In this document: piece by piece, positions 2 to 26,214 of the stretch
How the letters are laid out: each line of letters starts with the position of its first letter
Position numbering within the stretch: position 1 is the stretch's first letter
From: a virus
Reading direction: 5' to 3' (one strand)
IMG/VR virus record: IMGVR_UViG_3300008050_007803
Span: 1 to 37,002 of that record
DNA length: 37,002 nt
Program-made: the position numbers and the translations under genes
The notes under the pieces: generated by a model
Database searches by the model: none
Told to the model about the DNA's origin: nothing
The model's input: only the letters and a program-made list of their open reading frames with translations

Positions 2-649
2 GACAGTGTTAGTTCAGATATGGGTACAAAAGCGCGCGCAATGAAGACATTAATGCAAACTTGTACAAATTTAGGGTCAGTTACACAAACCACTATCCTA
101 TGTACTAATCATGTCTATGATGACCCAACAGCTCTGTTTCCTTCTATTGAAAAAAATATGCCAGGTGGTAAATCATGCATTTATCTTCCATCAGTAACAG
201 TTCAACTAGCACGCAAGCCAATGAAATCAGATGGCGGTAAGACTGTTGATGGGGAATTGGCAGTTGGTCAGAAAAAATACGCTGGAATTATTATTAGAGC
301 CCTTACGCGTAAAAATAGATTTATTAAACAGTACCTTGAAGGTGAAATATACCTTTCATTTGCTTCTGGACTTGATCGCTACTATGGATTAGTTGATCTG
401 GCCGTTGGTGTTGGTGCAGTAGTTCAAACTGGAGCAACTTATCAGCTTGAAGATGGTACTAAGCTAGGCTATTATAAGAATTGGAGGAAGGATGTTAAAC
501 TTTGGGAAGAGACTATTCTTCCAAAACTTGAAGAACGAATTAAAGATGAGTGGTCTTATAGTAATAAAGAAGAAGAGCCACCTGATGAATTAGGTTTAGA
601 TGGTTTAGATGATTTAATTAATGAAAAAGAAACTAGTACTGACTCTTAG
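2..649 (+). CDS. uvsX: UvsX/RecA-like recombinase, 3' part
   Basis: This is the C-terminal part of a T4 UvsX-type recombinase, which forms ATP-dependent filaments on single-stranded DNA for strand exchange and recombination-dependent replication. The frame is open through the left edge. It begins with the end of a Walker B-like strand (DSVSSDMGTKARAMK), so the internal ATG at 20 is not the true start. Seen motifs are the loop TILCTNHVYDD, then PGGKSCIYLPSVTVQLARKP, matching the UvsX core after Walker B. The C-terminus is acidic (EEEPPDELGLDGLDDL), as is common in phage recombinases and a likely contact region for mediator or gp32-type partners. Walker A lies outside the window. Its end overlaps queC by 29 nt, so the two are probably cotranscribed. 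Confidence 0.88.
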   Translation, partial: DSVSSDMGTKARAMKTLMQTCTNLGSVTQTTILCTNHVYDDPTALFPSIEKNMPGGKSCIYLPSVTVQLARKPMKSDGGKTVDGELAVGQKKYAGIIIRALTRKNRFIKQYLEGEIYLSFASGLDRYYGLVDLAVGVGAVVQTGATYQLEDGTKLGYYKNWRKDVKLWEETILPKLEERIKDEWSYSNKEEEPPDELGLDGLDDLINEKETSTDS

Positions 650-1379
650 TGGGGGAATGGACTCATCTGTGCTGTTGTATATGGCACAAGATAGAGGCTA
701 TGATCATATACATACCATAACCTTTGACTATGGTCAAAGGCATAAACAAGAACTCGCTTGTGTTAAAAAACAAATTAATAATTTTAATAACATGTTTAGC
801 GGGTGGTTTAATTTAAAGATTACTAATAAGGTCTTAGATGTAAAGTATATTAAAGACATTGCGCCTACCTCATCTTTAACTAATAAAGATATTGATAATC
901 CTAATATTAGCGAGATGGCAGGTGATGCACAGCCTGTCTCATACGTACCGTTTCGGAATTTAATGTTTCTATCTATTTGCTCGTCATATGCTGAAAGTGT
1001 AGGTGCAGATACAGTATGGTATGGTGCTGCACAGGTTGATTCACTAGCTGGGTATTGGGACGGTAGTGAAGAGTTTGTTAATGTAGTTAATGAAGTAACA
1101 GATCTTAATAGAGAGAACAGAATTAACATTGAAGCACCGCTTCTTGACATGTCGAAGGCTGCAATTGTTAAAGAAGGAATTAGACTAGGAGTTACATATG
1201 GTGATACATGGACATGCTATTCGAATAGAGAAGATGGGCTAGCTGATGCCACAACTCCGTCAAGTAGTATGCGAATAACGGGGTTTATTGATGCTGGGTA
1301 TGAAGACCCTATTCAATATGTCCAACAGGAAAAGTTGGATGACCTATACAAAGAAAATAACTGCAAGGAGTGTGCTTAG
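621..1379 (+). CDS. queC: QueC-like 7-cyano-7-deazaguanine (preQ0) synthase with altered zinc site
   Basis: This is an ExsB/QueC-family PP-loop ATPase. The family converts 7-carboxy-7-deazaguanine to preQ0 using ATP and ammonia. Phages use preQ0 pathways to make 7-deazaguanine bases that shield their DNA from restriction. Visible motifs are the PP-loop SGGMDSS (residues 10-16), TFDYGQRH (34-41), VPFRNLMFLS (109-118), the GYWDG segment (144-148), ENRINIEAPLLDMSKA (165-180) and DTWTCY (195-200). Canonical QueC has three more zinc cysteines just after the TWxCY cysteine. Here residues 201-247 contain none, and Cys returns only at 248 and 251 at the extreme C-terminus (NCKECA). Length, 252 aa, is slightly above the usual 220-240. 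The start overlaps uvsX, and the stop overlaps the convergent minus-strand gene by 4 nt. No QueD, QueE, FolE or DpdA gene is in the window. Confidence 0.85.
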   Translation: MKKKLVLTLSGGMDSSVLLYMAQDRGYDHIHTITFDYGQRHKQELACVKKQINNFNNMFSGWFNLKITNKVLDVKYIKDIAPTSSLTNKDIDNPNISEMAGDAQPVSYVPFRNLMFLSICSSYAESVGADTVWYGAAQVDSLAGYWDGSEEFVNVVNEVTDLNRENRINIEAPLLDMSKAAIVKEGIRLGVTYGDTWTCYSNREDGLADATTPSSSMRITGFIDAGYEDPIQYVQQEKLDDLYKENNCKECA

Positions 1380-3290: not shown

Positions 3291-3953
3291 ATGTGCGCTA
3301 TTTTTGGATCGTTCGACAAAACAATGTTAGAGATTTTATACCAAGCTAATAAGGAGCGTGGTAATTTTGCTAGCAGCGTTGTATGCATATCAGATGATGA
3401 TCAATATATCTCTAAACATGAAGGTGATATAAATTTTGATAAGTTTAATTATGCTGGTAGGGAAAATATAGAATATCTTCTTGGGCATGTACAGGCACCT
3501 ACTTCCGCTAAAAGAACCTGGAACTACAACACATCTCACCCATTCGAATCTCTGACATGGCTGGTTAGTCATAATGGTGTTTTAACAAATGAGAAAAAAC
3601 TAAGAAGAAAACATACAAGATTTTTAGAAAATCCCGTTGATACAGCGGTAATAGTTGAACTATTAGAAAAATTTACTCAGGTAAATAAAAACCCAGTTAA
3701 TACCATAAAGCAAGTATTATCAATGTTAGAGGGGTCGTATGCTTTAAGTATGGTGCATTCTAATACTAACGATATCTATATAGCGAGAGTAGGGTCACTT
3801 CTTCACTATAATAATAAGGGCAACTACTCTACAATGATGGGATCCGGTTATAAAATATTACCTGAAGGAATTATAATGAAGTTAAATAAAAAAACAAAAC
3901 GATGGAATAAAGTAGGCACTTTTGAATCCAAGTCACCGTTTACATTTGTATGA
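3291..3953 (+). CDS. stand-alone class II glutamine amidotransferase
   Basis: This is an N-terminal-nucleophile (class II, GlmS/PurF-type) glutaminase domain, which releases ammonia from glutamine for a partner synthase. The start is MCAIFGSF, so Cys2 becomes the nucleophile after Met removal. Other family features are GHVQAPTS (65-72), SHNGVLTN (93-100, oxyanion Asn/Gly), VDTAVIVELL (116-125, Asp117 for the glutamine amino group) and LEGSYALSMV. The whole protein is only this domain of 220 aa, with no sugar-isomerase, phosphoribosyltransferase or synthetase domain, so the ammonia acceptor must be another protein. The Arg that binds the glutamine carboxylate in GlmS/PurF (GHxR) is Gln68 here. 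Its stop overlaps the next gene's start (ATGA), implying translational coupling to the glycosyltransferase. QueC, another ammonia user, is 1.9 kb upstream. Confidence 0.82.
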   Translation: MCAIFGSFDKTMLEILYQANKERGNFASSVVCISDDDQYISKHEGDINFDKFNYAGRENIEYLLGHVQAPTSAKRTWNYNTSHPFESLTWLVSHNGVLTNEKKLRRKHTRFLENPVDTAVIVELLEKFTQVNKNPVNTIKQVLSMLEGSYALSMVHSNTNDIYIARVGSLLHYNNKGNYSTMMGSGYKILPEGIIMKLNKKTKRWNKVGTFESKSPFTFV

Positions 3954-13257: not shown

Positions 13258-13491
13258 ATGGAAAAACATAAATTTAAATTAAAAGATGGTTCAACGAAAA
13301 CTATGGAATTTGATGAATTGGTTCGTTGGGCTTGCTTGGTAGAAGCACTGGAAGTAGTCGGGGGGAAGGAAGATATAGATATTGAAAGTAATAAATGGAT
13401 TAAACCATTAGCATTTCAAAAATATATTGATGAGCGATTCCACTCAATGAAGCACGATCTTAAAGTTGAAGCTACTCTAGGTAATTTATAA
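13258..13491 (+). CDS. small hypothetical protein
   Basis: This 77-residue protein is unrecognised. It starts with a basic strand pair (KHKFKLKDGSTKTMEF), followed by helical segments (ELVRWACLVEALEVVGG, FQKYIDERFHSMKHDLK). It is the last plus-strand gene in the window and meets the minus-strand block head-on, overlapping the glycosyltransferase gene's end by 6 nt. There is no Shine-Dalgarno, but a TATAAT lies 10 nt upstream. The size and pattern suit a small DNA- or protein-binding factor, but no function is claimed. Confidence 0.65.
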   Translation: MEKHKFKLKDGSTKTMEFDELVRWACLVEALEVVGGKEDIDIESNKWIKPLAFQKYIDERFHSMKHDLKVEATLGNL

Positions 13492-14313
13492 TCCTAGCTC
13501 TTCTTTCACAGTTTGGATATACTCACTTGACACTTTATCTTTAAACTTGTCAATAACTTCGGTGGTATCTTTTCCAATTTCTTGGAAACCAATCATATAA
13601 TTTCGGAACCGATCCTCTCTTGTTGGCTTAAACGGAGCTCCTAGTGGTCTTCCAAATCTATGTACCCATCTAAGAAACGGTAGGCATACTGATCGCCGAC
13701 CCGCGTTGCGGTATTTTTCATGAATATACCCTTCTTCACCCCCAAACCCTCTAAACTTTTTGTTAAAGCCTAACCAGCTATCTTTTCTACATGTAAAGAG
13801 TCCAAGACCTTGAGCTTGGATTTCAAATGGCTTCCCGTTAGGGTCATCACCCCTTTTATCTGATCCCCAGACGCCCCACATATCACTACCCCATTTATCT
13901 AGATCAAAATGAGTAGCTGTATTTTTCATATCGTCATATAGTAGAGGGCCTTGCAATAAATTACCTTTATCCTTTCCAGCATCATAATAATCTAAAAGCT
14001 TTTTTAAGCTCCCCGGGTCAATTAATACATGACAGTCCATTACTAATACGTATTCAGTATTCGCTAATCCAAATATTTTGTGTCTTAAAGAAGTTGCGGA
14101 AAATGCATCAAATTCAACATAAGTTAAAGGCTCTTTAATCCATTCAGCAAATTTACGTATCTCTCTTCCTTGTGGTGATTTTGGATTGTTATTAATAATA
14201 ACAAATTCTAGTCGATCTAAAATTTCTTTATGATACAATCTTAAAGACTGTATTGTAAAATAAAGTCCTTCATAGTCGTCATAAACACAGGTTCCAATAG
14301 TAAGTTTTCCCAC
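13486..14313 (-). CDS. GT2-family glycosyltransferase, polypeptide GalNAc-transferase-like
   Basis: This 275-residue GT-A glycosyltransferase has no membrane segment. The N-terminal nucleotide-sugar half shows TIGTCVYDDYEGLYFTIQSL (5-24) and VIINNNPK. The metal motif is DCH (93-95) in YVLVMDCHVLIDPGSLKKLL, a DxH as in eukaryotic polypeptide GalNAc-transferases rather than the usual bacterial DxD. The acceptor half has QAQGLGLFTCRKDSW (167-180) followed by FRGFGGEEGYIHEKYRNAG (188-205), matching the GalNAc-T pattern of GGLF, then a WGGEN-like acidic loop, then a basic and Gly turn. The start is GTG at 14313, because an ATG at 14315 is out of frame. It lies 11 nt downstream of the Pro/Thr-rich 1125-residue gene on the same strand, so the two are probably cotranscribed. 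Confidence 0.82.
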   Translation of the reverse strand: MGKLTIGTCVYDDYEGLYFTIQSLRLYHKEILDRLEFVIINNNPKSPQGREIRKFAEWIKEPLTYVEFDAFSATSLRHKIFGLANTEYVLVMDCHVLIDPGSLKKLLDYYDAGKDKGNLLQGPLLYDDMKNTATHFDLDKWGSDMWGVWGSDKRGDDPNGKPFEIQAQGLGLFTCRKDSWLGFNKKFRGFGGEEGYIHEKYRNAGRRSVCLPFLRWVHRFGRPLGAPFKPTREDRFRNYMIGFQEIGKDTTEVIDKFKDKVSSEYIQTVKEELGL

Positions 14314-14324
14314 ATTATTAATTA

Positions 14325-17300
14325 CTAAAATTGCAAATTATTGCAATCCGGATCTTCGGGACATATCGTTGTAGTTGTAGTCGTTGGAGCCGGGGTAGTA
14401 GTCGTCGTGGTAGTAGTCGTCGTCGTGGTCGTAGTTATTATTTGTTCTTCTATTAAGAAAGGTACCTGCAGCGGTAGGATCGGCGCCGGGTATATAAACA
14501 CCGGGTCCTCCGGTTCCGGTTCCGGTTGCGGCGGATCCGGCGGATCCGGCGGATCCGGCGGCTGCGGCAGTGGCGGTTCAACAATTATAGTCGGTGGCAC
14601 CCTGGTTGGAGGAACAGTACATGGGGGCGGTGGAGTTGTGTAGGGCGGCGTCGTATAAGGCGGCGTCGTATAAGGCGGCGTCGTATAAGGCGGAGTTGTG
14701 TACGGTGGTGGAGTTGTGTAAGGTGGTGGAGTTGTGTACGGTGGTGTTGTAGGATCATCGTATATTTTAAAATCACCAGACGGTCCACCGTTCGTATAAC
14801 CACCCGGCCAATTAGACCCGGGTAAATCATTAGTATTCTCTAGACCGCTGGGTGTATCAATGACCTCTTCACGCGTGCTGGGATCTGTGACATCATCGTC
14901 CTCCTCCTCTAAATACGGATCAACAAAGACGTCTTTTTTAAGAAGAGGGTCGAGTCCACCGGAGTCAATGTCAATGATGGGACCTTCTTTGGTTTGGGTT
15001 GTATCATCCGTTTCCTCGATCTTTGTGCGAGGATCAGTAGGATCGAGGCCACCAGGGTCAATGATGGGACCTTCACTTCCTTCCCCGGCATTTGGATCCC
15101 ATGGACCGGCCGCCGACATCCGCCAGCCAGATGGCAGCTCAAACGGGTCACTTCCTTCCCCGGCATTTGGATCATATGGGCCAGCCGCTGACATCACCCA
15201 ACCGGGTGGCAGAATAGGATCAGCAACCTGATCAGGTTGGTACGTTATTGGTTTTGAAGCTGATATTGCTTTATCAATATCAACTGTCTGCAAAACATAA
15301 CTAGGCGACCCGGCATTATGGCTAAGGCGCTCCATTGCCGCATTAATCTCATTTTGAGTATCGGGGTTCCCATAAAAAGGTCCACCGCCGGTGGTTGTAT
15401 GAGTCTCAACTAAAATAGGTGTGTTATTAGTGTATATAAATGACGGAGCACTACTATCACCCCTTTCCAATAATTCTTGGAAACTACTCTCTGGTATAGG
15501 TAGAGCAATGCTTACAGTTTCAGGATTTGCTCCGCGCTCTGACCGGCCACGGTCGAATGTCATTACTCTTGGAATTGATTTTCTTTCCGCATCAACTGTA
15601 ACAACATATGAATCCTGTAAAATATAATTATAATCCGTACGTGGTTCAGGAACGGGGTAAATAGCAGTGTTTTCAACCGGTGAATCAAAAATTCCGACAC
15701 TTATATCCAGACTGCGGTCGCCAATCTTGATTCTTTCAACAATATTTCTAGTTACTCTATTTCCATCTTTATCTATAAAATTTACAACGCCATCGGCACT
15801 ATCACCCGGATACCGTACGTCCCAATGCTTGGACATTACGAAGTGAATTGGAGACACCATGGTTATTGATTTTTCTGTCGCGGCTCTCCAATTATTCGGA
15901 TTAAAACCAACTCCACGTTCACTTATACCTGATATATCCAATTTACCGGCAATTGGTAAGTTAGATACTAATAACCTGTTTATGAGTTTTTTAGTTTCAG
16001 ACTCTGGTTCTGGACTTTCTCTTTGCTGTTGTACAGTTAAAGTGAATATCCGTGTTAGATATACTTGTATATCTTCCAATAACCACTCTGACAACATTCC
16101 GCTGGGGTCGTCCTCCACTCCACTGTTAATATCTGTAAGTCTTTGCTGATCAGCTTGTAGTCTTTGAGTGAGTTCCTCCAAACTTAAAGTTGGTAATATA
16201 CTGTCTCTGAAACTCCTCCTCGCCTCCAACCGTCTTTGGTTTGCAGCATTTAAAAGCTCTTGCCGAGTCGTTTCATTTTGCTCACTTTCAGCTTCCTGTC
16301 GTTCTCTTTCTATTCTAGCTTCTTCAGCTATAGCTGCCTTACTCGCGGCGACCGCAGCCGCCTCTTCCTGTAACTGCCTTAATCTAGCCTGTTCTAGCGA
16401 TTTTTGTTCAGCTTCATAAGCAGCCGCCTTCCTAGCTGCCACTTCAGCGTCACGTATTGCATCGGAAGTCGCTTCACCGGCTTTTGATAATCTACCGGCA
16501 GTGGTTGGCTTATCCGGTGTAGCCGCTGTATATAGCCTCCTACCTTGGGTGATCTGCTCCTCTGCTTTAGTTGCTTGCGCTGCTTGTGCAGTTGCTTCTG
16601 CATCTGCCTGCGAGCGTGCCGCTTCTGCTTCCGCTTTTGCTGCCTCAGCAGCCGCGAGCGCCTCTGCCGCGACCTCTGCCGCGGCCTGAGCTATGCTTTC
16701 CGCTTTTGCCTGTGCTGCTGCATTTGCTGCGGCTCGAGCCGCGGTCTGAGCCGCAGATTCCGCTGCTGTACGTTCCGCTTGCGCAGCCGCGGCATCTACC
16801 GCGGCCTGAGCTGCTAATTCTGCCGCTTCTGCTTCTGCCTGCGCAGATGCTTCCGCTTTTGCTGCAGCATCTGCTGCCCTCACCGCTTCCTCCTCCTGTT
16901 GTCGAAGTTGATCAACCTGTTCTTGCGAGATTCTAAATTCGTCTTGAGGGTTAGGTATATTTTGTGTTATCCTTTGTGATACAGGCTTACCTTCAACAAA
17001 TTGCTGTAACGAAATGGTAACATCCATACTACCGTCTTCAGCAACTTGATCTGCAATAAGTGTTAACCCATCAGCATTTATATTTACCCATGGGGTGGGT
17101 AACCCCCATACAGAAGCAGGTGTAGTACCACTAGCACCGTCCCAAAGCTCTTCTTTAGTTTGATAATCCTCAATAAAGATCTCAACCTCACCATCAAGCT
17201 CTCTAGATACTTGTACATAATCTACATTAACAGTACCTGTTGTGTTTTTAAAAGAGTTTGGAGCTCCACCACCGCCCAGTTGAGGGTAAGCGACAACAGT

Positions 17301-17702
17301 CACACCAACATCTATTAGTCCAACGTCCGGGCTGCCTAAATTTGAAGCCGCAGGCTCTACCGCGGTAGTTGGCTGATTAGGATCCGTATCCTCTGTGTCC
17401 GCGGTTGATGGTCCCGTAACGACCGGAACGACCGGATCAATTGGAGACACCGCACCTGGAGACACCGCACCTGGATTACAAAGCGCTGGGTCAGGTGGCA
17501 CCTCATATGGGCCAGCCGCTGACATCCGGATCTCAGGCTGCACCTTATATGGCCCGGCTGCTGACATCCGCCAGCCGGGTGGCAGCTCCGGTTCACTTCC
17601 TTCCCCGGCATATGGATCATATGGCCCGGCCGCTGACATCAGCCAGCCAGGTGGCAGCTCCGGGTCACCGCCATTCACGGAATATGGATCATCTATTGGC
17701 AT
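14325..17702 (-). CDS. multidomain virion-type protein: repeats, Ala-rich coiled coil, trypsin-like domain, Pro/Thr tail
   Basis: This is a 1125-residue mosaic. Residues 1-70 hold three copies of a PPGWxMSAAGPY motif. Residues 125-250 form a beta-rich domain. Residues 255-500 are an Ala/Glu/Gln-rich helical region, probably coiled coil. Residues 585-815 look like a chymotrypsin-fold serine peptidase, with SPIHFVMSKHW (His620), SLDISVGIFD (Asp666) and RGDSSAPSF (Ser750), spaced 46 and 84 residues apart much as in trypsin, plus the later THTTTGGGP. Two more MSAAGP repeats follow (837-868), then an acidic linker. Residues 985-1060 are PPYTT and PPD repeats. Residues 1090-1112 are 14 Thr, PAP and 6 Thr, and the protein ends with two Cys. 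No signal peptide or membrane helix is seen. The DNA is visibly GC-richer than its neighbours. It overlaps the upstream gene by 1 nt (TAATG). A tail-associated or exposed fibre-like role is inferred from position. Confidence 0.82.
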   Translation of the reverse strand: MPIDDPYSVNGGDPELPPGWLMSAAGPYDPYAGEGSEPELPPGWRMSAAGPYKVQPEIRMSAAGPYEVPPDPALCNPGAVSPGAVSPIDPVVPVVTGPSTADTEDTDPNQPTTAVEPAASNLGSPDVGLIDVGVTVVAYPQLGGGGAPNSFKNTTGTVNVDYVQVSRELDGEVEIFIEDYQTKEELWDGASGTTPASVWGLPTPWVNINADGLTLIADQVAEDGSMDVTISLQQFVEGKPVSQRITQNIPNPQDEFRISQEQVDQLRQQEEEAVRAADAAAKAEASAQAEAEAAELAAQAAVDAAAAQAERTAAESAAQTAARAAANAAAQAKAESIAQAAAEVAAEALAAAEAAKAEAEAARSQADAEATAQAAQATKAEEQITQGRRLYTAATPDKPTTAGRLSKAGEATSDAIRDAEVAARKAAAYEAEQKSLEQARLRQLQEEAAAVAASKAAIAEEARIERERQEAESEQNETTRQELLNAANQRRLEARRSFRDSILPTLSLEELTQRLQADQQRLTDINSGVEDDPSGMLSEWLLEDIQVYLTRIFTLTVQQQRESPEPESETKKLINRLLVSNLPIAGKLDISGISERGVGFNPNNWRAATEKSITMVSPIHFVMSKHWDVRYPGDSADGVVNFIDKDGNRVTRNIVERIKIGDRSLDISVGIFDSPVENTAIYPVPEPRTDYNYILQDSYVVTVDAERKSIPRVMTFDRGRSERGANPETVSIALPIPESSFQELLERGDSSAPSFIYTNNTPILVETHTTTGGGPFYGNPDTQNEINAAMERLSHNAGSPSYVLQTVDIDKAISASKPITYQPDQVADPILPPGWVMSAAGPYDPNAGEGSDPFELPSGWRMSAAGPWDPNAGEGSEGPIIDPGGLDPTDPRTKIEETDDTTQTKEGPIIDIDSGGLDPLLKKDVFVDPYLEEEDDDVTDPSTREEVIDTPSGLENTNDLPGSNWPGGYTNGGPSGDFKIYDDPTTPPYTTPPPYTTPPPYTTPPYTTPPYTTPPYTTPPYTTPPPPCTVPPTRVPPTIIVEPPLPQPPDPPDPPDPPQPEPEPEDPVFIYPAPILPLQVPFLIEEQIITTTTTTTTTTTTTTPAPTTTTTTICPEDPDCNNLQF
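14644..14757. repeat. 15-bp tandem repeat encoding PPYTT
   Basis: Three perfect copies of a 15-bp unit (GGCGGCGTCGTATAA; 14644-14658, 14659-14673, 14674-14688) are followed by diverged 15-18-bp copies (GGTGGTGGAGTTGTGTA type). On the minus strand they encode the (P)PPYTT repeats at residues 985-1025 of the large protein. A shorter 9-bp repeat (GGCGGATCC, three copies near 14530-14556) encodes the PPD repeats. Confidence 0.85.
15074..15218. repeat. 75-bp imperfect direct repeat (MSAAGP motif, C-terminal pair)
   Basis: Two copies start at 15074 and 15149 (shared start CACTTCCTTCCCCGGCAT). They encode the fourth and fifth GWxMSAAGPxDPNAGEGS motifs after the peptidase-like domain. The same unit recurs at the other end of the gene. 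Confidence 0.8.
17505..17670. repeat. MSAAGP-motif repeats at the gene's 5' end
   Basis: Three copies of the same coding motif occur here, one starting at 17594 with CACTTCCTTCCCCGGCAT as in the distal pair and two shorter ones. They lie about 2.4 kb from the copies at 15074-15218, so homologous recombination between them could delete the coiled coil and the peptidase-like domain. Confidence 0.75.
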
Positions 17703-18601
17703 TATGCTGTTATACTAGATACGGTAGTATATGGTTTATCTGGCAATGTGCATAAACTTGGAGTTAATACGGTTTCTGTGAGTACTTCACTTCCTTCATA
17801 ACCTTCAACGTGAAAATCTCTCAGAAAGAAGTCTTTCGCGCTTAGTGAATATCCACCTGCAGCTGCAGGTGTAGTTGAAGAAATTGGAGTGCTAAATGCA
17901 AATCCGCAATAGATATTATCTAAATTAGATAACGTACTATATCTAGACCCCATGTCAATTGCTGTTAGCAGAGTATACGTAGTGGTATTACTATCTCTTG
18001 AATCAATATATAGTGTTCTGCCCAAATTAACATATCTAAATCGTAATGTTCTATATGTATCAGTAGATATAGTACTAAAACTAGTAGATATAGAAGATAA
18101 ATGATTATAAGCCAATACATTATGTAAATAGTCACGAACTACAATTGACTCTCTTAATAGCTGATTCGGCTTTACACCTGGACGATCGTCTCTCCCAGTT
18201 AATGCATAACGCCCGGTTGAATCAAAACCAACCTTTACTAACATACCGCTTAATACAGCACCTTCTAGAAGAACTGTAGAATCGCCTTCAGTCTTTAATA
18301 CTTCTGGTGTTTCCGTTAATAACGCATGCGCAGATAATACAAATTCAGGGTCCTGATCACCGAGATATTGCCCAGGTAGAGTAGATATTGGTTGTACGAG
18401 ATTTGTTAAAAAGGTTGAAAATCCTAGTTCATAGTTATGAAATTGAGCTGTTGAGCCAAAACTTGTACTAGGTAATTTATACTGAAAGGACCACGTAATA
18501 TCATAATTCGAATTAAACGCTTTTTTAGACTCAACAAACGTATAATACCTTGCTAAAGAAGGTAATGATATATCAGACGGAAATCCTGCTAATGCTGCCA
18601 T
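17702..18601 (-). CDS. hypothetical beta-rich virion-type protein
   Basis: This 299-residue protein is unrecognised. It is rich in Ser, Thr, Tyr and Leu with alternating hydrophobic pattern, as in phage tail and fibre proteins: ARYYTFVESKKAFNSNYDIT, YELGFSTFLTNLVQ, TYRTLRFRYVNLGRTLYID, NIYCGFAFSTPISSTTPAAA. There are no enzymatic motifs. TTAAATA lies 5 nt before the ATG. Its stop overlaps the start of the 1125-residue gene (TAATG), so the two products are likely made together and may bind each other, for example as a fibre and its adaptor. Function remains open. Confidence 0.75.
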   Translation of the reverse strand: MAALAGFPSDISLPSLARYYTFVESKKAFNSNYDITWSFQYKLPSTSFGSTAQFHNYELGFSTFLTNLVQPISTLPGQYLGDQDPEFVLSAHALLTETPEVLKTEGDSTVLLEGAVLSGMLVKVGFDSTGRYALTGRDDRPGVKPNQLLRESIVVRDYLHNVLAYNHLSSISTSFSTISTDTYRTLRFRYVNLGRTLYIDSRDSNTTTYTLLTAIDMGSRYSTLSNLDNIYCGFAFSTPISSTTPAAAGGYSLSAKDFFLRDFHVEGYEGSEVLTETVLTPSLCTLPDKPYTTVSSITA

Positions 18602-19038: not shown

Positions 19039-20697
19039 CTAGTTCCATTCAAACACTACAATTCCAGTGGTAGGTACAGGCCCGGATGGTTTTTTACTAT
19101 GTGATCCTTGACCACCGCCATATGCTGGACTGTTACCGTAAAAACCTGAACCACCCACTCCTTCTTCTTCGCCACTATCGTCTGTATCTACATGACCGAC
19201 GCCACCTACTAACGATATTGTTTCTGTTGGTAAATAAAGACTGTCAGCAATAACCGGTGTAGGTGCAGTAGTTGAATTGTACAAACCACCTTTAGCTCTA
19301 ACTAATGGCGCTGTCGGATATCCGCCGGGTTCGTATATATAACTAGACTTTCCACTAGTAAACCCTACCGGTGGAGCACCTACAACAACTGGGAATTGTG
19401 TACCTGGAGGTGCAGAGAGATAGCCAATTGCTGTTGATCCAGCATTACCACTTCTGCCTTTTCCAGGAGAGCCAGATCCAGTTACATAAAACTTAACGTA
19501 CGAAATGCCATTTGGCATTGTAAATGTATGTGTTACACCTTCTGCATTAAAAATTCGAATTCCGGGCTGAGGTCTTGTTATTTGTATTGTACCGCTAAGT
19601 GGGTTAAAAGAAGCATCAGTTTTATTTTCCGTTACACCTGATCCTGATGTAATAGTCGCAGATAGGTTTTTCCCGACAGTTAATGTAGGGCTAGTTACAC
19701 CTCCAAAGGCTTTAATAATAAACGACATTCCTATAGCAGAAACACCAGGGCTGCTTGAATGAGCTGTTGTTACCCCTACTAATGTACTGTTAGCAGGCGA
19801 TGATCCCTCCATCCATCCATATAATGCAGTACTACTCAGATTTGGAAGAGTAAATGTATTGGCAGAAAAATCTCTTCCATATTTGCCGCCTGTTGCAGTA
19901 AGAAGTTCTGAATACGTTACAGCATCAACAGCCTGCCCATTACAATTTAACCAACCATACGGCGCAGCTGATATCGGACACGCATACGGCATAATAGTTC
20001 CAATTGGAACCAAAGCCGCTGTAGTTGGAGCTACCGGTGAATATACTATTTGAGGTACTTGCCAAGCAAGTTGAGCCTGCCCTGCGCCATCCGTTGAACT
20101 GTAACCTAGGAATGTTTTAGCTTGCGGTGATGTTGCTGGAAAAGTATAATCGATTGAGTTAACTTTTAACTTTGATGGTAACGAAAGATAACTGGTAAGA
20201 CCTGAGTCCCTTTGAATTATACCGTCTATGCTAATTCTAGAACTTAATGCTACCTTATTAGACCCATCAAGAGTTAATGAGCTTCCTAATGCATTAGTAG
20301 ATATATTTCCTGCGGATAATGTACCAACAGTAATTTGATTAGCCGCGTTAATACTAATTGTTGTATCTCCGGCGCTTATTAAATTCGATACTGTTACCCA
20401 GTCTGAAGCTGCAGCTCCTGTACCGGTAACACATACTTTTATTTCATGGTTATCTGAATCATAACCATAGTCTCCAGTTAATACAGGTGCTAAAGTAGTT
20501 AAATTAGCTGCTCGCCCGGCCCACTTGTTTCCAACAATTACCCCACCTTTTGTTGTACCATCACCGACAAATAATCTCACCGTATCAGTCGTCATCCCAA
20601 GCTCACCAGTCTCGAGGGTAATTTGTTGTCGATCATAATTAGTCCCTCTCCTAACAAGGAGCTTTAACAAGGTATTTTCTAAAATTTCTATGGCCAT
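19039..20697 (-). CDS. tail fibre protein with phage tail-collar domain (paralogue 1)
   Basis: This 552-residue virion protein has three visible parts. The N-terminus (1-60) carries LLVRRGTNYDRQQITLETGELG and TVRLFVGDGTTKGG, a small attachment-type module frequent at the start of phage fibres. The middle contains a tail-collar domain (231-290): VPIGTIMPYACPISAAPYGW, LNCNGQAV, then FTLPNLSS. The C-terminus is Gly- and Ser-rich and may hold the tip (GGVGHVDTDDSGEEEGVGGSG, YGGGQGSHSKKPSG). It is a paralogue of the next upstream gene (20710-22257), sharing the N-terminal and collar modules while the rest differs. CTAAATA lies 9 nt before the ATG. Its role is likely host attachment. Confidence 0.82.
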   Translation of the reverse strand: MAIEILENTLLKLLVRRGTNYDRQQITLETGELGMTTDTVRLFVGDGTTKGGVIVGNKWAGRAANLTTLAPVLTGDYGYDSDNHEIKVCVTGTGAAASDWVTVSNLISAGDTTISINAANQITVGTLSAGNISTNALGSSLTLDGSNKVALSSRISIDGIIQRDSGLTSYLSLPSKLKVNSIDYTFPATSPQAKTFLGYSSTDGAGQAQLAWQVPQIVYSPVAPTTAALVPIGTIMPYACPISAAPYGWLNCNGQAVDAVTYSELLTATGGKYGRDFSANTFTLPNLSSTALYGWMEGSSPANSTLVGVTTAHSSSPGVSAIGMSFIIKAFGGVTSPTLTVGKNLSATITSGSGVTENKTDASFNPLSGTIQITRPQPGIRIFNAEGVTHTFTMPNGISYVKFYVTGSGSPGKGRSGNAGSTAIGYLSAPPGTQFPVVVGAPPVGFTSGKSSYIYEPGGYPTAPLVRAKGGLYNSTTAPTPVIADSLYLPTETISLVGGVGHVDTDDSGEEEGVGGSGFYGNSPAYGGGQGSHSKKPSGPVPTTGIVVFEWN

Positions 20698-20706
20698 ATG
20701 TTTTAA

Positions 20707-20713
20707 TATTTAG
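20707..20713 (-). promoter_or_regulatory. late-type motif CTAAATA
   Basis: Minus-strand CTAAATA lies 9 nt before the ATG at 20697, overlapping the stop codon of the upstream fibre gene. Confidence 0.4.
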
Positions 20714-22257
20714 TAGCTAAAAACAGGTATTGCAAATCTATCAAACGTTTCAGTACTCTCTTCACTTCGTACGTCGCCGGATAACGCCATTGTAATAAAT
20801 CCTGCAGAACTTAATTTAATATTATTTCCGGCTGAAGTTAGTCCTTCACATATTTGCTGTGAATATTTACCACCGAAATTATTTTCAACCTGGTTAGGAG
20901 CTCCATTAAAGATATTTAAAACAGGATCTTCAGCGTATTTTATAATAAAGTTAACACCTGAAGCACTTAAAGTTGTGCCTGGTGTTGGACCAGATAGACT
21001 ACCATCAGTAGCACTTAAATATAAGGTTTGTGTACCGGTTGTAATAGCGCCGTTAGCACCATATAATAAAACATCACCACCGGTGAGGTTTGGTACTTTA
21101 AAGTCGGTCATATTTGCACCGCCGTAAGTAGTTCCGATCTTATCAAATAATTGTCTATATTCCGGTCGAGCTGTTGCGTTAAGACTGTGTCCGTTGCATA
21201 ATAAATACCCAGCTGGGGGGAGTGTAAACGCTTGTGCATGTGGTAGTATCGAACCGATCGGAACACCGTCACCCGCTCCACTACCTGAAAGACCGGTAGC
21301 AGTAATGACATCAAATACAGAGCTTTTAATTTCAGTAATTAATCCTTTGTTCGTGTCTAAGAAAGGCATCTCCATAAAGGCAGATGTAGCTCCATTTAAT
21401 GTTACTGTACCGTTGTCATTTGTAATAAGTGCACCATCAACTGACTGTAATACAGCTTCTAATTTATTTGTTGCTGTGTTTACTTGTAATCCGCCGCCTA
21501 ACCTACCATCTGTTGTTGAGGTACCATCTCCAGGTCCGGCCCATGATGAAATACTAACATTCATCGCCCCAACATCTTTGAGCTCTAATTTATTATTAGT
21601 ATCAAATTTAAATTGCTGCTCATTAATACTTAAAGCTAATTCTTCACCATCCCCACCCTTTAATCCGCTAGATGCTGGAAATAAGGCCTTTATCTCTCTT
21701 TTAGTTATAGAGTTTTGCTTTGGTGTTAATCTCCCGTCTTTACCAGGCGCGCTAGATAACTGTAAATAATCAGTGTTAAATGCAACATTTACATTACCAT
21801 TAACAGCAGATAATAGAGCATCCCCAAAAAACGTTCCACCTAAATATTCTGCATCAATTGCGTTTTTTGATAGCGTAAGCTTATTATTGGTATCAAATTC
21901 GAGGAATGCACCATCTGGAACTGATCCTATATAACTCCACCCTGATAAAGTGTTTGTATATGCCCTCCCGGTTGCCGATGCGCCGGAGAGTATATATAGC
22001 TTGTTTTTCGCGTAACCAATATCACCAACCTGTAAATATGGTGACTCACTAACCGCTGGGCCTAAACTAGCATCAGCAGCAAAAGGACCCACATTTACGT
22101 TACCAGCTACCTTACCACCGTAAGTAGCCCCATCACCGACAAATAGTCTTTTTGAATCTAGGGTATAACCTACTTCACCTTGATCCAATACGATCTCCTT
22201 TCGTTGGTCATCAGTACCTCTCCTAACTTTTAATTTTACTATAGTAATATTTGCCAT
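20710..22257 (-). CDS. tail fibre protein with phage tail-collar domain (paralogue 2)
   Basis: This 515-residue protein has the same architecture as the 19039-20697 product. The N-terminal module is KLKVRRGTDDQRKEIVLDQG with KRLFVGDGATYGGKVAGN. A beta-repeat shaft follows with recurring FDTNNKLxL segments (about 120-130 and 218-227). The collar domain is at 333-390 (VPIGSILPHAQAF, GYLLCNGHSLN, DFKVPNLTGG). The C-terminus (about 425-515) is different from the paralogue and ends ETFDRFAIPVFSY. It starts 4 nt after the upstream gene, with a degenerate ATAAAAT next to the ATG. Duplication followed by tip divergence is the likely history. Confidence 0.82.
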   Translation of the reverse strand: MANITIVKLKVRRGTDDQRKEIVLDQGEVGYTLDSKRLFVGDGATYGGKVAGNVNVGPFAADASLGPAVSESPYLQVGDIGYAKNKLYILSGASATGRAYTNTLSGWSYIGSVPDGAFLEFDTNNKLTLSKNAIDAEYLGGTFFGDALLSAVNGNVNVAFNTDYLQLSSAPGKDGRLTPKQNSITKREIKALFPASSGLKGGDGEELALSINEQQFKFDTNNKLELKDVGAMNVSISSWAGPGDGTSTTDGRLGGGLQVNTATNKLEAVLQSVDGALITNDNGTVTLNGATSAFMEMPFLDTNKGLITEIKSSVFDVITATGLSGSGAGDGVPIGSILPHAQAFTLPPAGYLLCNGHSLNATARPEYRQLFDKIGTTYGGANMTDFKVPNLTGGDVLLYGANGAITTGTQTLYLSATDGSLSGPTPGTTLSASGVNFIIKYAEDPVLNIFNGAPNQVENNFGGKYSQQICEGLTSAGNNIKLSSAGFITMALSGDVRSEESTETFDRFAIPVFSY

Positions 22258-22261
22258 AATT

Positions 22262-23344
22262 TTATGCTATTCGTCGCCATACGTACGCACCATACGACGG
22301 CGGAATGTTATTGTGTTTTGTTCCATCACCTACAGCTGTAGACGGCTTAATATTAGATGCTCCTTCATTTACAACTACTTGTTCATCTCCTTTTGTTACC
22401 ACTGTTGCTGAACTTTCATTAGTAGCTAATTCCCCAGCTGTAGCCTGGCCTAAATCAACAGCACCTAACTCCCTACAAAATGTATATGCATCAAAATCCC
22501 ATTGCGCTCCAGCCCCTCCAGGAAATTCACTTGCCACAAACCGTGTTTCACCGTTCCATAATCCAATCATTTCCTTATAACCATAATCCGGATTTTCTAG
22601 GTACGCGGCCCTTTGAATTGCAGAATAAGTAGCAGCAGATCCTAGTAAGAAATTAAGATCTAATGTTCTTCTTATAACATCCTGTGGGTCGCTAGGGTTA
22701 TTTGTTCTGTTTCCAAAATCGTTATTCCAATTCCATCCACTAGCAGCTCCAAGTTGATTTCTTCGCCTCTGCTGCTGTGCCCATGCTTGTGTTGAATTTG
22801 TTGTACCAGCGCCAGTAGCAACAAAAACTTGCCCGTTACCTACATTAGAACCGGTCGCGACAAAAACATCATCAGCTCCAACATTAGTGTCGTGCCTATG
22901 CGGCGGTAAGTTTGCAATAGTAAGTTCTGTCATATACTCACCAGCTAGATTTCCAGATTCTTCTGTGTTTTCGTAATCAGTACAAAATTTTCTAAAATCG
23001 TTATTTTTATCCGTAAAATCTCCAACACCTACTAAAAATCTACCCTGTGCAATTTGCTCCCAAGTAGTCCCTGCTATTCTTGTTTGTGGGTTAACGTTAT
23101 CTAGAGTTAATTGTATACACCCGACAGGAAAAAATGCTGTTAACCATTCTGTAGGGTTTTCAGCAAACCCTTCCGGGTATATGTAATTATTAATTACTAC
23201 TCTATTACCACTTAATTGTAACCCGGTAGAATTACCAGCTCCATCAAACACTTGATTTAACGAGTCTCCTAGCTCTGACCCACTTAAATGGAGCAAAGAA
23301 GTATAAAAATCAGATATAAATTGATTTGTTAAACTCTCCGGCAT
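22262..23344 (-). CDS. short tail fibre / fibre-tip protein
   Basis: This 360-residue protein is related to the N-terminal 420 residues of the next gene upstream (23377-26214). Shared features are an N-terminal helix with FISDFYTSLLHLSGSEL, then QVFDGAGNSTGLQLS, RVVINNYIYPEGF, FFPVGCIQLT, IAGTTWEQIAQGRFLVGVG, the histidine motif LPPHRHDT (147-153), and a C-terminal KHNNIPPSYGAYVWRRI. The HxH motif after a Leu-Pro is typical of metal-binding collar/receptor-binding domains such as those in T4 gp12-like short fibres. The IPPxxxxYxWRR ending is also typical of such tips. ATAAATA lies 8 nt before the ATG. Confidence 0.8.
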   Translation of the reverse strand: MPESLTNQFISDFYTSLLHLSGSELGDSLNQVFDGAGNSTGLQLSGNRVVINNYIYPEGFAENPTEWLTAFFPVGCIQLTLDNVNPQTRIAGTTWEQIAQGRFLVGVGDFTDKNNDFRKFCTDYENTEESGNLAGEYMTELTIANLPPHRHDTNVGADDVFVATGSNVGNGQVFVATGAGTTNSTQAWAQQQRRRNQLGAASGWNWNNDFGNRTNNPSDPQDVIRRTLDLNFLLGSAATYSAIQRAAYLENPDYGYKEMIGLWNGETRFVASEFPGGAGAQWDFDAYTFCRELGAVDLGQATAGELATNESSATVVTKGDEQVVVNEGASNIKPSTAVGDGTKHNNIPPSYGAYVWRRIA

Positions 23345-23352
23345 ATTACTAT

Positions 23353-23359
23353 TATTTAT
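23353..23359 (-). promoter_or_regulatory. late-type motif CATAAATA
   Basis: Minus-strand ATAAATA lies 8 nt before the ATG at 23344, in a 32-nt intergenic gap. Confidence 0.6.
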
Positions 23360-23376
23360 GTCACAATTTGAAAATA

Positions 23377-26214
23377 CTATCCAATGTTGACATTTCCTTC
23401 CGTTTGACCGTATATTATACCACCAACAATTCTAACACCACTACCGCCTCTAACTCTTATTGAATAACCGCCTTTGCCGCCTTTATAAGTATCCCCGGAT
23501 TGCGTTGTAGACCCGCCTGGCGCGCCCCAACCGCCGCCACCTGCACTAAATCTATTATACCAGCGACGGTTTGCGATTGAAGGGTAGCCCGATCCAGACC
23601 TATTTGTTGTTTGTACAGGGTATTTTTGAAAAACACCAGGTAGGCTTCCAGATCCACCTCTAACGAGTCCAGATCTATGATTATAGCCATCCCATCCCGT
23701 GGGTGATACATATGAAATGCCGTTATATATTAAATCGCTTCCACCACCCGGTTTATTAATTCGAGCGGCGACATAAGGTAAACCTGGCGCGCCACCTACT
23801 ATGCCGTTTGCTCTCCAGTGAGGCCCTACATGAAACCGCGGCCCGCGGCCGAAGAAATTGCCATATTTTCTATTTGACGTTAGCGTATACCCAGAGAGCC
23901 ACCCGTAGTATGGCTCACTACGATTATAAGCTGTAATATATGTTTCAATACAACGTCTACTCAGGCGTCTTCCAGTACATGCTATATCTACCGATCCATT
24001 TTCACCTGGAGGTATATTACTCCACGCCGGCCCGCTTTCACGACCTTCTTTTAAATTACCACTTAAATCTAGTGCACCAAATTCAGCACCAAAAATACCG
24101 CCTGTCCCTCCACCATATGCTGTAGGTGTTAGTATGCGACCCCCACCGCCTCCAGTGCCTTGAGGATTTACCCCTCTCCACTCCCTACCACCAGCTCCGG
24201 AGCCACCAGCTTCACCACCAATTCCAGGTAATAGTACGTAAAGTGGTCCCCACCCAACAGTAACAATATCACCAGCTCGTTTAAATTGTTGTAAAGAATG
24301 CGCACTAACAACTGGGCTAAAGAAACGACCAGCGCCGCCGGGTTCACCCGGAGCGCCGCCTGCGCCACCGCCGGCCGTAGTTGGTGCATTGACCTCTTTC
24401 CATCTATCAACAACACCTAAATGCCCATCACCATCGTTAGTATAAAGAGATCGACCTATACCGTGGATTGGGCTAGTACCGCCCCAGCCTCCACCGGCCC
24501 CTCCTCCTCCACCAGACTTATCTCCATCATATGCGCTTGCTCCGCCTCCTCCACCACCACTTATACCACCTTGTGTGTTGTCAATTATAATTTCAGAATT
24601 ACCAGTAACCAGTATAGCATCTCCACCATCTTGTCCAGATCGATTAATACTCCAATAGCTACCTCCATTACCACCTCTACCCATAATGAACCCTTTATTT
24701 ATTAACTCTAAACCACCAGGAAAATGATCTACGATCATTGCTGGTACCTTATCGTCACTTGGGTCGTCTGAATATATATAAACACCATTATCGATAATTA
24801 CTCTACATTTAGACTGCCCATCCCACCCGTTATCTGTAGCCCACTTATTTAAATTAAATACCTTATTTTTAGTAGATATTTTGTTACTAGAAATAGTTAA
24901 CTGATATGGTAGATTATCACCCGGTCTTTGGTCTGGTGATAAATTATCATGATAATTAAGAGGTACACGTTTCCAAAAGTAAACCGGGAAATTAGGTGGT
25001 ATATTATTATGTCTTACAGATTGACCAGTAGTTGTCGATTGTACAACTTTTGAACTAGGTACTAAACCGTAATATAAATTCTCACCGGCTACTGCTTGCC
25101 CTACCGTGGCGTTTAACTCTTTTAATCGGTTAACCCCATCAAGAGCTTTAGCTGCCTCATCCAGTCCTAATATATCGATAATAAAATCACGCGCTTTAAT
25201 TAATTCTCTATCCGGAAACCTACCTGGATGGACTCTATCTGAGGATCTTGGGTCATAAAAAGACCGGTCTATGTAGTATTCTACGCCATTGTATTCCCAT
25301 TTTACACCAACCGGTCTAGGACTAGATCCAATAAATTTACCAGACACATTTAAAATACCACCCCACCCTGGGCCTCCAGCGGCCGGTGGAGCCCATCCTG
25401 CTAAAGTTTGATTTCCAAACCTAGGATTAAAATCAGCATCAGTATATACTTTACCGGTTTTATGATTTTCTCTAATTATAAAATCTCTGTAGTGTTCAGT
25501 ATCACCGTATGCAGTATTGTATTGAAACGCTTCAATTACATTACTATCTAAGTACCGCTGGTCATCTGTTACTAGCTGCTGCGGGTTTAAAGTGTCACCA
25601 AAATAAAATATAAATGCTACATTCGTTCCTTCGCCCTGACTTTGCTCTGGTACTGCCTCTGTTTTAATATCAGTTGTGTGAGTATGCGTAGGTAGGTCTT
25701 CAGCATCAACACCAGCTCTAAATTCACCAGCTAGATCTCCGTTTTCTAATCCTGCACCTGTTCTTTCTTTATTACCAGCAGTAAAAGTAAAACTATTATT
25801 ATTTTTATCAGTACCGGTTCCTACACCAACAGGAAATAACCCTTGTGACTCTAAAACCCACTTTGTTCCTGCTATTTTAATTCCAGGGTTTTTAAAATCA
25901 GTAGTTAGGATTATACTATTAATTGGAAAAAAAGCATCTAACCACTCTTTTTGATATGACCAACCTTCAGGTTTGATATAGTTATTCACTACAACCCTAT
26001 CACCGAGAGAGCTTAAAGATAGACCAGTTGTGCCCCCGGCGCCATCATATATTTGAGCTACACCAGGCTCTGGTGTAAACACATTATAAGGACCTGCTGT
26101 GGACCATAGCTCTGTTACAGTATTAGTTAACCAAGAAGCAATACTACCACCACTTACATGTAAAAGTGATGTGTATTGATCTGCTATACGTTGTTGTGAA
26201 AGACTGTCCGACAT
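23377..26214 (-). CDS. large fibre-tip protein fused to a glycine-rich adhesin-like domain
   Basis: This 945-residue protein has two parts. Residues 1-420 repeat the whole plan of the 22262-23344 product: AQIYDGAGGTTGLSLS, RVVVNNYIKPEGW, IAGTKWVLESQGLFPVG, LPTHTHTT (174-181) and the tip ending HNNIPPNFPVYFWKRV. Instead of stopping there, it continues with a connecting domain (about 420-510) and a very Gly-rich C-terminal domain (about 515-945) with many short runs such as MGRGGNGGSYW, GGAGGGWGG and GGKGGYSIRV. Glycine-rich repeat blocks of this sort form the polyglycine-II receptor-binding domain of T2/S16 gp38-type adhesins, so this is a candidate receptor-binding protein. ATAAATA lies 7 nt before the ATG. 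Confidence 0.82.
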   Translation of the reverse strand: MSDSLSQQRIADQYTSLLHVSGGSIASWLTNTVTELWSTAGPYNVFTPEPGVAQIYDGAGGTTGLSLSSLGDRVVVNNYIKPEGWSYQKEWLDAFFPINSIILTTDFKNPGIKIAGTKWVLESQGLFPVGVGTGTDKNNNSFTFTAGNKERTGAGLENGDLAGEFRAGVDAEDLPTHTHTTDIKTEAVPEQSQGEGTNVAFIFYFGDTLNPQQLVTDDQRYLDSNVIEAFQYNTAYGDTEHYRDFIIRENHKTGKVYTDADFNPRFGNQTLAGWAPPAAGGPGWGGILNVSGKFIGSSPRPVGVKWEYNGVEYYIDRSFYDPRSSDRVHPGRFPDRELIKARDFIIDILGLDEAAKALDGVNRLKELNATVGQAVAGENLYYGLVPSSKVVQSTTTGQSVRHNNIPPNFPVYFWKRVPLNYHDNLSPDQRPGDNLPYQLTISSNKISTKNKVFNLNKWATDNGWDGQSKCRVIIDNGVYIYSDDPSDDKVPAMIVDHFPGGLELINKGFIMGRGGNGGSYWSINRSGQDGGDAILVTGNSEIIIDNTQGGISGGGGGGASAYDGDKSGGGGGAGGGWGGTSPIHGIGRSLYTNDGDGHLGVVDRWKEVNAPTTAGGGAGGAPGEPGGAGRFFSPVVSAHSLQQFKRAGDIVTVGWGPLYVLLPGIGGEAGGSGAGGREWRGVNPQGTGGGGGRILTPTAYGGGTGGIFGAEFGALDLSGNLKEGRESGPAWSNIPPGENGSVDIACTGRRLSRRCIETYITAYNRSEPYYGWLSGYTLTSNRKYGNFFGRGPRFHVGPHWRANGIVGGAPGLPYVAARINKPGGGSDLIYNGISYVSPTGWDGYNHRSGLVRGGSGSLPGVFQKYPVQTTNRSGSGYPSIANRRWYNRFSAGGGGWGAPGGSTTQSGDTYKGGKGGYSIRVRGGSGVRIVGGIIYGQTEGNVNIG

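Follow-up and report, generated by a model that had tools for sequence, protein, structure and literature searches.

A chymotrypsin-fold serine peptidase domain predicted as an exchangeable cassette in a tail-type protein of an uncultivated marine T4-like phage

Phage tails carry enzymes that cut sugars and peptidoglycan. The right-handed β-helix depolymerases of tailspikes and tail fibres resemble the system described here in that, in related carrier proteins, a Beta_helix domain lies between these N- and C-terminal modules, but the cassette of our phage has a peptidase fold and its carrier is only a putative tailspike. Peptidases of the chymotrypsin fold are known from the S1 family of clan PA (trypsin, chymotrypsin, factor Xa) and from V8 of Staphylococcus aureus and Esp of Staphylococcus epidermidis; the latter two are secreted free enzymes, unlike the phage domain, which is internal to a large protein. 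A trypsin fold within a surface-acting particle occurs in the Streptomyces umbrella toxins, where the trypsin-like domain of UmbA has an incomplete triad, is inactive and serves as a binding hub (PMC11062931). A trypsin-like serine protease is also mentioned, with no further detail, among the proteins common to a cluster of alphaproteobacterial phages (PMC10783043). When 50,697 phage records were searched by tblastn with bovine trypsin, one match was obtained, the serine protease gene 109 of Rhodococcus phage Shagrat, a gene of 257 codons that stands on its own next to hydrolase and HNH genes and does not lie within a tail-type protein. The open-licence literature searched yielded no account of a phage tail-type protein that contains a trypsin-fold domain. 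The chymotrypsin fold is known; the exchangeable, modular tail-type setting in which it occurs here appears new.

The window, that is, the whole stretch of DNA analysed, is an IMG/VR virus record of 37,002 bases from an uncultivated, marine, T4-like phage. It contains T4-type replication genes encoding UvsX, a DnaB-like helicase, a T4-type single-strand binding protein, a primase and an exonuclease, and, on the opposite strand, tail genes with Collar, Mtd_N and Gp10_C domains. The helicase is ∼30% identical to helicases of isolated phages, its matches being distant T4-like phages only. No tRNA genes were found in the window. The replication region also holds a QueC-like queuosine biosynthesis gene (621–1379, plus strand) and a glutamine amidotransferase-like gene (3291–3953, plus strand); both may have to do with modified bases in DNA or tRNA.

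The carrier gene (14325–17702, minus strand) encodes a modular tail-type protein of 1125 residues that holds the peptidase domain and has no match in Pfam or PHROGs. It is preceded directly by a conserved gene of 299 codons (17702–18601, minus) and followed directly by a glycosyltransferase family 2 (GT2) gene (13486–14313, minus; PF00535, E = 2.8e-8), which is also found downstream of related carriers; this gene order is kept across the IMG/VR loci compared. Further upstream (19039–26214, minus) lie the tail genes, assigned by domain matches, two encoding proteins with Mtd_N and phage Collar domains and two with Gp10_C. The Mtd_N and Collar proteins (19039–22257, minus) are two paralogues, and Mtd_N gave two matches in each of nine related records tested. 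The carrier gene thus stands among tail genes, and from these neighbours only, its product may be placed in the virion.

The sequence-only reading had proposed a chymotrypsin-type double-barrel peptidase in this repeat-rich, tail-type protein at 15261–15951 (about residues 584–814). Its double β-barrel fold had been named beforehand as a point on which the proposal could fail, and AlphaFold2, Foldseek and VIA all bear it out. An AlphaFold2 model of residues 567–830 (15213–16004), computed from 20 phage sequences without templates, reached a pLDDT of 79.6 and a pTM of 0.83. A Foldseek search with this model matched 876 PDB chains (E ≤ 0.001). V8 protease scored best (7.6e-7); factor Xa, plasmin, urokinase and chymotrypsin came next. 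VIA aligned 998 chains, all with Z ≥ 8; the best were Esp (Z = 16.1) and V8 (Z = 15.9), tied with others, and these two match about 185 residues at 3.1–3.2 Å. The aligned part of the model, its residues 15–241, corresponds to residues 581–807 of the carrier (15282–15962, minus), which is close to the span proposed earlier. A previous AlphaFold model from nine close sequences was poor (pLDDT 46.8), and its Foldseek matches were mostly S1 peptidases, none of them significant. Among viral predicted structures, the best match was A0A6J7XEP5, an uncharacterised protein of 452 residues from an uncultured Caudovirales phage (E = 3.6e-11, 19% identity).

The likeness to clan PA thus lies in the predicted double β-barrel, with its high structural scores, and in the equivalent places of the active-site residues, whereas identity to S1 peptidases is only 10–15%. 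Scans of the domain and its relatives against Pfam, PHROGs and NCBIfam gave no usable match. The best Pfam match, to DUF316 (nematode trypsin-6-like, E = 0.013), fell in a relative and not in the window domain, for which neither PF00089 nor its kin scored significantly; sequence profile searches of the PDB returned chance matches only. Since no curated family matches, the domain is filed as S1-like by fold rather than as a member of Pfam S1.

A full-length hhalign alignment to an S1 profile (bovine trypsin with plasmid and phage serine proteases) spanned 186 columns (P = 1.5e-4) and paired all three triad positions: His626 (15825–15827) with His57, Asp666 (15705–15707) with Asp102 and Ser750 (15453–15455) with Ser195, all on the minus strand. 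The motifs on which the earlier proposal was built, SPIHFVMSKHW (617–627), LDISVGIFD (665–673), RGDSSAPSF (747–755) and THTTTGGGP (767–775), are all present at the places given for them, as are His620, Asp666 and Ser750, which it had named as the triad. Asp666 and Ser750 keep this role. His620 (15843–15845, minus) was rejected as the catalytic histidine because hhalign pairs it with Trp51 of trypsin, and the spacings of the triad accordingly change from 46 and 84 to 40 and 84. The model shows a strand up to residue 623 and then a short helix from His626 onwards; in chymotrypsin, His57 likewise follows a strand end and opens a short helix. Both this and the hhalign pairing led us to correct the assignment. 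Local hhalign covers the Ser region only, and alignment over the full length was obtained by lowering the confidence masking; the motif, the secondary structure of the model and the divergent relatives are therefore further grounds for the His assignment. Taken together, the catalytic histidine is most likely His626, in the SKHW motif. The THTTTGGGP strand, in agreement with its proposed role, falls in the alignment where the strand after the catalytic serine lies. The Ser motif GDSSAP, which had been set against the classical GDSGGP, is indeed the form present in the window but is one variant only: relatives carry GDSSGP, GDSSSP, NDSGSP and HDSSSP. Where S1 peptidases have GDSGGP, the phage domain has GDSS[AGS]P.

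A His, Asp, Ser pattern by itself proves nothing and is expected by chance. A loosely spaced triad was found in 99.7% of shuffled copies of the carrier protein, and one with GDS at the serine in 4%. The triad observation alone being weak, the case was made from relatives. Close relatives were found in 13 IMG/VR loci. Leaving aside four copies of one and the same phage, their identity is 37–50%, and all 13 have kept the triad residues. Two viral scans with these relatives as queries yielded no new sequences. A scan with the upstream 299-residue protein led to 40 loci, several of which encode a divergent domain at the corresponding position among the genes, and one further scan added more divergent relatives; a scan with GT2 gained context but no new cassette type. 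The motifs of the divergent members, for example HGTAVTPRHVLISAHY, DFAIVLLD and GDSSSPLF of L057, look closer to those of classical trypsins, and a profile built from divergent cassettes only finds the window domain at E = 2e-9. No relatives were found in isolated phages, nor in prokaryotes when one genome per species was searched (about 85,000 species).

The resulting alignment contains 20 rows, with identity down to about 17%, over 264 positions of the window protein. Only 14 of these positions are invariant: Ile574, Gly592, His620, His626, Phe642, Arg652, Asp666, Pro687, Asp749, Ser750, Pro753, Leu764, Gly778 and Asn787. All three residues of the corrected triad are thus conserved over great sequence distance, as is Asp749, the equivalent of Asp194. 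The equivalent of Gly193 in the oxyanion loop is Asn, His or Tyr in some divergent members. The presence of the active-site residues among the 14 invariant positions, together with the predicted peptidase fold, raises the triad above chance, and the active site of the domain is apparently intact.

At position 189, found by counting back from Ser750, the window has Leu and the close relatives have residues other than Asp. Members of this subfamily are therefore not expected to cleave after Arg or Lys in the manner of trypsin. Glutamyl endopeptidases, V8 and Esp among them, keep a His at position 213, a specificity position. In the hhalign alignment, His768 of the phage domain (ETHTTT; 15399–15401, minus) falls at this place. 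This His is invariant in the window's own subfamily (9/9 rows) and absent from the divergent type, and the equivalent of position 190 is Leu745, whereas the V8-type glutamyl endopeptidase pattern has Ser or Thr there. His768 as a specificity residue is a weak lead.

The carrier protein has a modular architecture. An N-terminal module (residues 126–240; 16983–17327, minus) is present in 24 of 28 carriers, both with and without the peptidase, and a C-terminal module (residues 1065–1125; 14328–14510, minus), consisting of PAPILPL, a poly-Thr tract and the C-terminal tag CPEDPDCNNLQF, in 18 of 28; of the carriers in which a module was not recognised, some are truncated at the edge of a contig and others have a variant tail. 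Between the peptidase and the C-terminal module lie PYTTPP repeats (residues 985–1030; 14613–14750, minus), seen in the translation. Their copy number varies among relatives, and the tract is possibly variable by slippage. MSAAGP repeats, within [LI]PPGWxMSAAGPYDPNAGEGS-like units, occur in three copies near the N-terminus (17508–17639, minus) and in two directly after the peptidase domain (15102–15194, minus). A second carrier type of 1900–2400 residues was observed at L007 (3246–10232), L006 (4119–10304) and L008 (4152–9917), in which repeated WYW..CCP cysteine modules are joined by TSTSTS tracts; the peptidase of these carriers is of the same type as that of the window.

Among carriers sharing the N-terminal module, the C-terminal module or both, the peptidase is present, absent, replaced by a right-handed β-helix or found beside one. 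L046, with the peptidase, and L042, without it, match on both flanks, 46% in the aligned start and 64% in the aligned end, and the same on/off pattern is seen for L062 and L063 versus L060 and for L047 versus L045. L042, L045, L050 and L051 have the same N- and C-terminal modules without the peptidase. Beta_helix scores over the Pfam cut-off in the related carriers L054, L064, L066 and L067 and just below it in L069, and L068 has β-helix and peptidase together. Peptidase types are also exchanged. L083 and L019 have GT2 neighbours that are 88% identical and similar carriers, but their peptidase types differ; in L084, a GT2 that is 82% identical to that of the window accompanies the divergent cassette; and two divergent cassette types are each found in two carrier types, a distribution that conflicts with how the adjoining gene is related. 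The domain is therefore gained, lost and exchanged between carriers as a unit. Such exchange and loss fit a tool of host contact and not an obligatory maturation protease. They speak for an activity that would be optional and directed outwards, probably at host surface protein, rather than for obligatory self-processing.

We consider it reasonably probable that the carrier is a tail-associated protein whose exchangeable cassette, a chymotrypsin-fold peptidase with the triad His626-Asp666-Ser750, is active, displayed on the virion and cuts host-surface proteins. The cassette is flanked by a fixed N-terminal module that includes a coiled-coil-like stretch and by a fixed, Pro/Thr-rich C-terminal module, and it occupies the place in the carrier that other phages of the group fill with a β-helix domain. 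Displayed there and catalytically active, it would cut proteins on the host cell or in its immediate surroundings during adsorption.

A protease of this kind might instead serve self-processing, cutting the carrier itself or an adjacent tail protein as a maturation step during assembly. The domain is internal to a large protein whose long, flexible Pro/Thr tracts would be open to cutting, and the five MSAAGP repeats flank it on both sides, all of which would suit such a role. We nevertheless regard self-processing as unlikely, since four carriers keep both terminal modules without the domain and others hold a β-helix in its stead, so that processing by the domain is not needed for carrier function. 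Quite unlikely, too, is a trypsin fold that has no catalytic activity and serves as a scaffold or adhesin. The precedent is UmbA, whose trypsin-like domains, without a full triad or activity, form binding hubs in the umbrella toxin particles (PMC11062931), and Umb1 chains are among the structural matches of the phage model in Foldseek. In contrast to UmbA, the phage triad is complete in 20/20 rows; with identity falling to about 17%, some lineages of a dead scaffold should have lost His, Asp or Ser. An activity directed at rival phage particles, or at dissolved or extracellular-matrix proteins, rather than at the host's own surface would fit an exposed, exchangeable enzyme, and the tests run do not separate it from host-surface cleavage; placement beside tail collar and tropism-type genes points to host contact, however, making such a target improbable. 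That the motif arose by chance in a repeat-rich protein without a peptidase fold is scarcely credible, for although chance readily yields loose triads and the domain has no match in the family libraries, structure prediction, fold searches, profile alignment and conservation all contradict it.

Proteolysis at the host surface, the reading we prefer, concerns one cassette; the gene that follows the carrier points to a wider system. GT2 is much more widely spread than the peptidase, being found in 262 viral stretches, of which 80 were kept, while no homologue was found in isolated phages. At 37 loci examined, the ORF just before GT2 ends in a tag, Cys-x-Cys-[NK]-x-L-x-[FYW] (also written C-x(2-10)-C-[NK]-x-L-x-[FYW]), generally after Thr-rich tracts with a Thr content of up to about 40%. 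Of 2340 ORFs, only nine others have this tag, and all nine are Thr-rich. GT2 and tag were observed together in the window (13486–14313 and 14328–14400, both minus) and at loci L105–L177. Judged from these sequence patterns, GT2 looks like a glycosyltransferase dedicated to the Thr-rich tagged protein as substrate, which is possibly a mucin-like virion protein with the Cys tag as recognition signal. The carrier belongs to a larger and apparently undescribed set of Thr-rich proteins that have a C-terminal Cys tag and stand beside a putatively dedicated glycosyltransferase.

The peptidase family is absent from Pfam and PHROGs and is consequently missed by annotation pipelines. If the peptidase is active, this would suggest that protein layers such as S-layers and outer membrane proteins bar the way of some marine phages, or act as their receptors, and are cleared by proteolysis. 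As a tentative and somewhat doubtful generalisation, marine T4-like phages of an uncultivated group may carry a modular, probably glycosylated, Thr-rich surface protein, together with its GT2 and Cys tag, in which trypsin-fold protease and β-helix cassettes come, go and are exchanged as host-range tools. If this is true, these phages would carry proteases to set host range, as other phages carry polysaccharide depolymerases.
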